From an uncultured Methylophaga sp. (GTDB taxonomy: Bacteria > Pseudomonadota > Gammaproteobacteria > GCF-002020875): a DNA stretch of 64,000 nt. The translations under genes and the position numbers were made by a program. The DNA is taken from NCBI GenBank assembly GCA_937877715.1, contig CALEHW010000036.1, forward strand, positions 1-64,000, in the 5' to 3' direction. Within the stretch, counting starts at the first letter, position 1. Every line of letters begins with the position of its first letter. Below, one piece after another: positions 1,112 to 1,909 of this stretch. The notes under the pieces were generated by a model. The model was not told the DNA's origin. It was given only the letters and a program-made list of their open reading frames with translations, and did not search any database.

Positions 1112-1202
1112 ATTGTTCTTTACTGCTTACTGCTCCTTCTTGACTTCGTTCTACCGTATATGGCGCGCCCGGCAGGATTCGAACCTGCTACCCTCGGCTT
1201 AG

Positions 1203-1860
1203 CTTACCACTATAGCTTTCGCTACCCTGCAATACACAGGTTTGATGGTCTGGACTATCTCTTCACCATTTCAGGTGTCGCACGTATAGTCTCTACGGAG
1301 CCCTTCGATAATCAGAGGCCAAACGTACATTTGTACTCTGATTATTCTTCGGTGCTTCTACCCTCAAAGTAACTGAACGCTTGAATTTCTTTGGATCCAG
1401 ATAATAACACTCATCAGTATCAGGACAATAGACACAGTAGAGATCAATCTCACTTTTATCTACCGGTTGCATGTGTGTTCCACTTGTATCAGCCCAACAG
1501 GACCTGAAGTGAACGGTCAATGCGCCCGTTTTATCCACCGACTTGTACTTAACCTGTACCCGCCTAAATTCCTTATCCTTATATGCAACCAAATCAAATG
1601 GTGCATGCTCAGTTACCGGATTCAAAACCATGAATCCTTGCTCGAATAAATCGAGCTGAGCCTTCAAAACACCGTGATCTCCCTTCTCCTTTGTATGATG
1701 CATATATCAAATATACATCAACCATTGGATGGGTCAACCAAAGGTTTCCTCGGGATTGCCATCAGCGCGACCTGTTAAGGTTTCCCCGATACGGTGCGAT
1801 CCACTTCACAGGTTATCTTTCCCTGTGAAGGCCCCTAGTTCATGCAATATGCACGCGTTG
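1203..1860 (-). ncRNA. Group I self-splicing intron in tRNA-Arg(UCU)
   Basis: A 658-nt insertion in the anticodon loop with every core helix of a group I ribozyme visible. P1 pairs exon GGCCTT (1866-1861) with the guide GGGGCC (1835-1830), with a U-G wobble at the splice site. P2 is CTTCACAGG/CCTGTGAAG (1830-1822/1812-1804). P3 is TCGCAC (1799-1794)/GTGCGA (1283-1278). P4 is TCGGG (1789-1785)/CCCGA (1754-1750), inside P/Q-like boxes. P7 is GACTAT (1291-1286)/ATAGTC (1258-1253). P8 is CACC/GGTG (1277-1264). P9 is CCTG/CAGG (1240-1226), and a GAAA-capped hairpin lies at 1224-1213. The intron ends with the required terminal G at 1203. The guanosine-dependent mechanism follows from the family. 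Subgroup IC3 is inferred from tRNA-borne relatives. The endonuclease gene fills the P6-side loop. Confidence 0.93.
1293..1703 (-). CDS. Intron-encoded PD-(D/E)XK homing endonuclease
   Basis: A 136-residue protein encoded within the group I intron. The fold signature is that of the small PD-(D/E)XK enzymes associated with group I introns, of which I-Ssp6803I from a cyanobacterial tRNA-fMet intron is the known type. An N-terminal helix KGDHGVLKAQLDLFEQGF is followed by NPVTEHAPFDLV, with the catalytic-type Asp at residue 37, and then VQVKY with Gln50 and Lys52. Such enzymes cut the intronless tRNA allele and so copy the intron into it. No Shine-Dalgarno precedes the ATG at 1703. The TAG stop (1295-1293) ends two bases before the P7 5' strand, so the coding sequence is packed against the ribozyme core. 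The frame is intact, which suggests recent or continuing selection. Target specificity cannot be read from the sequence. Confidence 0.85.
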   Translation of the reverse strand: MHHTKEKGDHGVLKAQLDLFEQGFMVLNPVTEHAPFDLVAYKDKEFRRVQVKYKSVDKTGALTVHFRSCWADTSGTHMQPVDKSEIDLYCVYCPDTDECYYLDPKKFKRSVTLRVEAPKNNQSTNVRLASDYRRAP

Positions 1861-1909
1861 AAGGCCGATGCTCTATCCTGATGAGCTACGGGCGCAAAAC
1901 TAAAAAATT

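Follow-up and report, generated by a model that had tools for sequence, protein, structure and literature searches.

A predicted group I intron with a PD-(D/E)XK endonuclease gene in a tRNA-Arg(UCU) gene, and the relatives of its endonuclease across bacterial phyla and phages

Among the described systems closest to the locus reported here, the cyanobacterial tRNA-fMet gene carries a group I intron in its anticodon region (Bonocora and Shub 2001, PMID 11251845; Zhao et al. 2007), and its product of about 150 residues, I-Ssp6803I (2ost), is an intron-borne homing endonuclease of the PD-(D/E)XK class. Group I introns also interrupt tRNA-Arg(CCU) genes of alphaproteobacteria (Paquin et al. 1999) and tRNA-Leu(UAA) genes of cyanobacteria and proteobacteria, and for BbgpI of Bartonella both self-splicing in vitro and splicing in vivo have been shown (PMC7717549). 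A survey published in 2014 recorded bacterial tRNA introns only in cyanobacteria and in alpha- and betaproteobacteria (PMC4033280), and a review of the same year placed every phage group I intron then known in protein genes (PMC3984707). The union of homing endonucleases with self-splicing introns has so far been argued from a few phage cases.

Here we analyzed a 64,000-nt stretch of DNA (the window; genome G000) in which a tRNA-Arg(UCU) gene is split within its anticodon. Our main reading, to which we give a probability of roughly 0.93, is that the insert represents a mobile group I intron of the type known from bacterial tRNAs and follows U34 of a tRNA-Arg(UCU) gene for which no second copy was found, with splicing, cleavage and homing being what we infer from its features. 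A published report of an intron in tRNA-Arg(UCU) was not found, but our coverage of the literature was partial and priority is therefore not established.

The split tRNA-Arg(UCU) gene and its intron

With introns allowed, ARAGORN called tRNA-Arg(tct) over 1895-1161 on the minus strand with a 658-nt intron; once joined, the exons form a complete tRNA-Arg(UCU) of 77 nt. Without introns, the program called no tRNA at this locus. The gene belongs to a tRNA-Pro/-Arg/-His/-Lys cluster, and its features are as follows.

1861..1895, minus strand: 5' exon of tRNA-Arg(UCU), last base U34 (ARAGORN on the joined exons, introns allowed; identical exon in G003)
1203..1860, minus strand: 658-nt group I intron, last base G at 1203 (covariation over 28 homologues; empty sites)
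1832..1863, minus strand: P1, CUU(C) at 1863-1860 with GGGG at 1835-1832, U.G at the splice site (U.G invariant in 28/28)
1804..1830, minus strand: P2, 9 bp (two-sided changes in 9/9 pairs)
1794..1799, minus strand: 5' strand of P3, partner at 1283-1278 (5/6 pairs covary)
1750..1789, minus strand: P4-P5 domain, P4 being 1789-1785 with 1754-1750 (covariation and sequence)
1743..1749, minus strand: 5' strand of P6, putative partner at 1302-1297 inside the ORF (sequence)
1293..1703, minus strand: PD-(D/E)XK endonuclease gene, intact, 136 codons, in loop L6 (Pfam PF11645, AlphaFold2/Foldseek, dN/dS)
1253..1291, minus strand: P7 (1291-1286 with 1258-1253), 3' strand of P3 (1283-1278) and P8 (1277-1264) (covariation and sequence)
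1206..1249, minus strand: P9.0 (1249-1246 with 1209-1206), P9 and a GAAA-capped hairpin (1224-1213) (covariation and sequence)
1161..1202, minus strand: 3' exon of tRNA-Arg(UCU), from C35 onward, CCA encoded (ARAGORN; empty-site alleles of G004, G005 and G001)

The junction U34|C35 is the only one that gives both an exon-terminal U.G pair and an intron-terminal G. In three sister genomes of the same genus (G004, G005 and G001) the tRNA-Arg(UCU) gene is uninterrupted and lies in the same tRNA-Pro/-Arg/-His cluster, and in these empty alleles GGCCTTCTAAG runs unbroken over the predicted junction, while G003 carries the same intron between exons identical to those of the window copy. The initial annotation had placed the cut between U34 and C35 and held that joining the exons restores a perfect tRNA, and both points are borne out by ARAGORN and by the three empty sites. 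A sub-threshold Rfam match to YrlA over the tRNA exons was dismissed as tRNA likeness.

The structure of the intron was assessed in an alignment of 28 ORF-deleted homologues, drawn from six phyla and one phage-like contig, with the P3/P7 pseudoknot included. Over the 12 helices P1-P9, 94.3% of cells are paired and 38 of the 56 pairs show two-sided changes; none of 500 shuffles reached as high, and slid structures were merely 33-41% paired. The splice-site U.G pair is found in every one of the 28 sequences, the exon pairs of the anticodon stem covary as well, and in P2 several two-sided changes already separate the window copy from that of G003. P1 of the window copy could alternatively pair in the longer register GGCCUU/GGGGCC. 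Every core helix originally named from the window (P1, P2, P3, P4, P7, P8, P9 and the GAAA hairpin) is present with support from covariation, and the comparative structure over these relatives supports the identification of the insert as a group I intron.

The expectation that the Rfam model RF00028 would detect the intron did not hold for the window copy, which gave no match even at E ≤ 1, the likely reason being its 411-nt ORF. Close relatives that lack the ORF match the model over the model's full length with E values of 3.7e-6, 4.2e-6, 2.9e-4 and 2.3e-4, at 30-36 bits and thus below the gathering score of 50. Further, a covariance model of the 3' half of the intron also recovers introns of tRNA-Arg(CCU) and tRNA-Leu(UAA) genes in other Pseudomonadota, which places the window intron with the bacterial tRNA introns. 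We take its core to be putatively IC3-like, for its likeness to the Azoarcus intron and other tRNA introns. Intron-blind tRNA annotation misses a gene split in this way, as both ARAGORN without introns and Rfam skip the window copy.

The intronic endonuclease, its carriage within the genus and the decoding of AGA

The endonuclease gene reaches into the predicted intron core: its last codons and TAG stop constitute the 3' strand of P6 and J6/7 (GGCTCCGTAG), P7 begins one base past the stop, and the intronic homologues share an ORF ending in ...(V/A/T)P-stop. The initial annotation had described an intact 136-residue endonuclease of the I-Ssp6803I type and pointed to the Pfam family PDDEXK_5. 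The ORF at 1703-1293 is indeed intact and its product matches that family (PF11645) at E 7.4e-40 over residues 2-133, in agreement with the predicted fold: the AlphaFold2 model (pLDDT 90.6) returned four chains of 2ost, that is I-Ssp6803I, as its top four PDB matches in Foldseek (E 1.3e-10 to 3e-7; TM on the query 0.65-0.79). The structural alignment gives 20-24% identity to I-Ssp6803I, and the sequence match is marginal (E 0.012). Of the catalytic D...QxK residues, D37 is invariant and Q50 and K52 are nearly so among 37 homologues, and the comparison with the ORF of G003 (dN 0.06, dS 0.8-0.9) indicates that the gene is under purifying selection.

Carriage of the intron is patchy with respect to host relationships, being present in G000 and absent from G004, and present in G003 and absent from G005. 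The intronless G004 is the nearest to the window genome among the genus genomes compared (87% nucleotide identity in folD, 91% in cysS), and the intron-bearing G003 is more distant (73% and 79%); in folD, which adjoins the tRNA cluster, G003 is itself closest to the intronless G005. The intron ORFs of G000 and G003 are 85% identical with a dS of 0.8-0.9, against a dS of about 2.1 for the adjacent folD, a comparison that involves one neighboring gene with dS near saturation. We favor horizontal spread of the intron within the genus, and several independent losses could also give the patchy pattern.

Such losses are part of a reading in which the intron is an immobile inherited relic, carried by the ancestor of the genus and cleanly lost from several species, with an endonuclease that no longer drives movement. 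It would agree with the finding that most gammaproteobacterial carriers have the intron at the same position and in the same cluster of tRNAs, with the grouping of the gammaproteobacterial sequences in the endonuclease tree, and with the identical empty sites that precise intron loss would leave. We nevertheless regard it as unlikely, since carrier and non-carrier are nearest relatives on folD twice (G000/G004 and G003/G005), the intron ORF of two carriers is more similar than the neighboring genes, and the window ORF is undamaged and shows the mark of purifying selection, while decayed and ORF-less copies exist elsewhere.

Whether the gene still functions bears on decoding. In the draft assembly (99.8% complete, 74 contigs) 32 tRNAs were found by model, including Arg(CCG), Arg(ACG) and Arg(CCU), and none of the 32 is a second tRNA-Arg(UCU); a mismatch-tolerant pattern search likewise turned up no further intact copy in either G000 or G003. 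The long ORFs of the window, with ~14,200 codons in all, contain 80 AGA codons. Given this use and the lack of a hit to another tRNA-Arg(UCU), AGA decoding probably depends on splicing, and this bacterium would then probably rely on a ribozyme, through its predicted splicing, to read AGA. It had been proposed that AGA and AGG both depend on splicing if the gene is single-copy. No other such gene was found in the 99.8%-complete assembly, and the proposal probably stands for AGA but not for AGG, which need not depend on splicing because a tRNA-Arg(CCU) gene is present elsewhere in the genome (locus L063).

The reading that the insert blocks a dead pseudo-tRNA, with AGA decoded by a gene missing from the assembly, could appeal to the 74-contig draft, where tRNAs such as Cys and Leu(UAA) were not found and assembly gaps might hide another copy, and to the apparent deletion of the 3' splice-site region in a related clade (L090, L095, L181). 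We consider it highly improbable, because the exons are identical in G003 with perfect base-pairing, the intron core is nearly identical between G000 and G003 while the ORF diverges, and AGA is in use with no second tRNA-Arg(UCU) found in either genome. Removal of the insert by protein enzymes rather than by a group I ribozyme, as occurs with anticodon-loop introns of archaea and eukaryotes (PMC4033280), is hardly credible for an RNA with a P1-P9 structure, a P3/P7 pseudoknot, an invariant splice-site U.G and covariation, and with relatives that match RF00028.

In our preferred reading of a mobile group I intron, an external guanosine would attack at the U.G pair of P1 and the exons would be ligated at the terminal G, this predicted self-splicing restoring the tRNA needed for AGA. 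The endonuclease presumably targets the anticodon arm of intronless tRNA-Arg(UCU), a view strengthened by freestanding homologues beside that tRNA; it would cut intronless genes there, and repair would then copy the intron in.

Endonuclease relatives across phyla and phages

A scan of 84,980 species genomes yielded 163 relatives of the endonuclease, and the best 80 were kept and classified by hand. Among these best 80 of 163, 57 are intronic in tRNA-Arg(UCU), in six phyla, 19 are freestanding, 2 lie beside an ORF-less intron and 2 are truncated; a plasmid collection contained no relative of the endonuclease that we could find. Intronic carriers include Gammaproteobacteria, Saprospiraceae, Chitinophagaceae, Acidobacteriota, Anaerolineae, Ignavibacteria and Longimonas, and cultured carriers include Niastella yeongjuensis, Longimonas halophila, Wenzhouxiangella limi and Cytobacillus gottheilii. 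The impression first gained, of a gammaproteobacterial oddity, has to be given up: such introns occur in 18 of 369 sampled Gammaproteobacteria and in at least five other phyla, where they are ORF-bearing.

Of 34 loci examined with freestanding copies, 33 have an intact tRNA-Arg(UCU) next to the endonuclease gene, a count that includes L069, where ARAGORN's Pyl call was re-read as Arg UCU, and the lone exception adjoins tRNA-Arg(CCU). Their hosts comprise Actinomycetota, with the copies on the opposite strand, Synechococcus phage Sf-FR1, Acinetobacter phage Herod and many viral contigs. An intermediate arrangement is seen in two Bacillota, Paenibacillus sp. BSR1-1 and Cytobacillus gottheilii (L121, L125), with an ORF-less intron of 288-290 nt and the endonuclease just downstream. 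In two Ignavibacteria (L137, L147) the endonuclease-bearing intron sits, by our own reading, after U36 and not U34 of tRNA-Arg(UCU). The endonuclease tree, which comprises few columns (139 for 96 rows), needs at least three context switches on well-supported branches and seven by parsimony, as exemplified by the freestanding L102 in an intronic gammaproteobacterial clade.

Several automatic labels were set aside. ARAGORN's calls of Ser(gct), Gln, Phe and Leu(caa) at some intronic loci were dismissed; the examined exons read CUU|CUAA, except in the two Ignavibacteria, whose intron follows U36. L094 is labeled archaeal, which we took as a binning error because the sequence clusters among those of Gammaproteobacteria, and the Asp intron call in the EFP01 phage (L067) was not retained, the non-ORF sequence being too little for a group I core.

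Among viruses, an 83.7-kb viral contig (IMGVR_UViG_3300034197_000017; L077/L233) has a tRNA-Arg(UCU) split by a group I intron bearing the same endonuclease, with the endonuclease at 10001-10408 of L233 and phage-like genes for ERF, a deoxynucleotide kinase and HNH. More distant freestanding PD-(D/E)XK relatives lie near tRNA genes in Salmonella phage vB_SenA_SM5 (L066) and in the haloarchaeal virus HATV-2 of Halorubrum (L068).

In the 369 sampled Gammaproteobacteria, the covariance model found introns in 50 genomes, and the 18 in tRNA-Arg(UCU) comprise 3 with an intact ORF, 2 with a decayed ORF (an internal deletion in L175 and a frameshift in L177) and 13 that are ORF-less. The ORF-less L165 has kept the relic codons FRRVP-stop, and the Paenibacillus intron the relic DYREVP-stop, the same as the end of its own neighboring endonuclease. 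From the decayed ORFs and the ORF-less introns with relic codons, the endonuclease lineage appears to move in and out of introns. The indication that ORFs exit introns as well as enter them is suggestive only, because the relic match is short and partly overlaps the conserved P6, and an alternative close to ORF exit is raised by a phage nuclease study of 2023 (PMC10448857).

We hold with moderate confidence that one endonuclease lineage tuned to tRNA-Arg(UCU) moved into and out of the group I introns of this gene more than once and spread between phages and at least seven bacterial phyla, and that all stages in the proposed birth and decay of a mobile intron are extant for this one target: freestanding, beside an ORF-less intron, inside the intron, as a decayed ORF, as an ORF-less intron with relic codons, and as an empty site. 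Its adaptation to tRNA-Arg(UCU) was probably independent of the intron, as its freestanding occurrence beside an uninterrupted tRNA-Arg(UCU) in phages and Actinomycetota, its position beside an ORF-less intron in Bacillota, its intronic position in many phyla and the loss of the ORF would suggest.

The survey also brought up loci of other kinds. In one gammaproteobacterial clade (L090, L095 and L181, the last in G362) an apparent deletion takes away the 3' splice site together with a portion of the 3' exon but leaves the endonuclease intact, and G362 yielded no further tRNA-Arg(UCU); the deletion is either an assembly error or the mark of a dead tRNA. Most of the gammaproteobacterial loci L182-L211 are tRNA-Leu(UAA) genes with a group I intron, frequently part of a Gly-Cys-Leu cluster, and the introns of ~690 nt (L191, L198) have an ORF that looks HNH endonuclease-like by eye. 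Vepritskiy et al. are said to have reported, in 2002, a tRNA-Leu(UAA) intron in a gammaproteobacterium. In the G000 draft, tRNA-Cys, tRNA-Leu(UAA) and tRNA-Gly(GCC) were not found; they probably represent one missing cluster, which is possibly itself intron-split.

Comparison with known systems

For a single target gene, tRNA-Arg(UCU), different phyla show the nuclease outside the intron, next to it or within it, and the relic codons give a hint of direction. How mobile introns are born has long been debated, and one proposed route thereby becomes testable. Several carriers are cultured strains.

The window intron resembles the cyanobacterial tRNA-fMet intron in being an anticodon-region group I intron whose PD-(D/E)XK endonuclease has a predicted fold matching 2ost, and differs from it in residing in tRNA Arg UCU, in other hosts, and in encoding an endonuclease 20-24% identical by structural alignment. 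The tRNA-Arg(CCU) introns, although found by the 3'-half model of the window intron, occupy another isoacceptor and a site after the anticodon (as read by ARAGORN) instead of U34|C35, and those examined have no relative of the window endonuclease. The tRNA-Leu(UAA) introns share the ARAGORN intron position class and are found by the same model, but interrupt another tRNA, and the gammaproteobacterial ORFs that we looked at are HNH-like by eye.

The locus and its relatives are also like collaborative homing, or the Bonocora-Shub pathway, described for phage T3 gene 5.3 and I-TslI (Curr Biol 2009, PMC2856452), in that a freestanding and an intron-borne endonuclease are associated with one conserved site, a likeness extended by the ORF-less intron and neighboring endonuclease of L121 and L125. 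Unlike in the T3/I-TslI case, the host gene is a bacterial or phage tRNA, the endonuclease is of the PD-(D/E)XK class, and relic codons suggest exit from introns in addition to entry.
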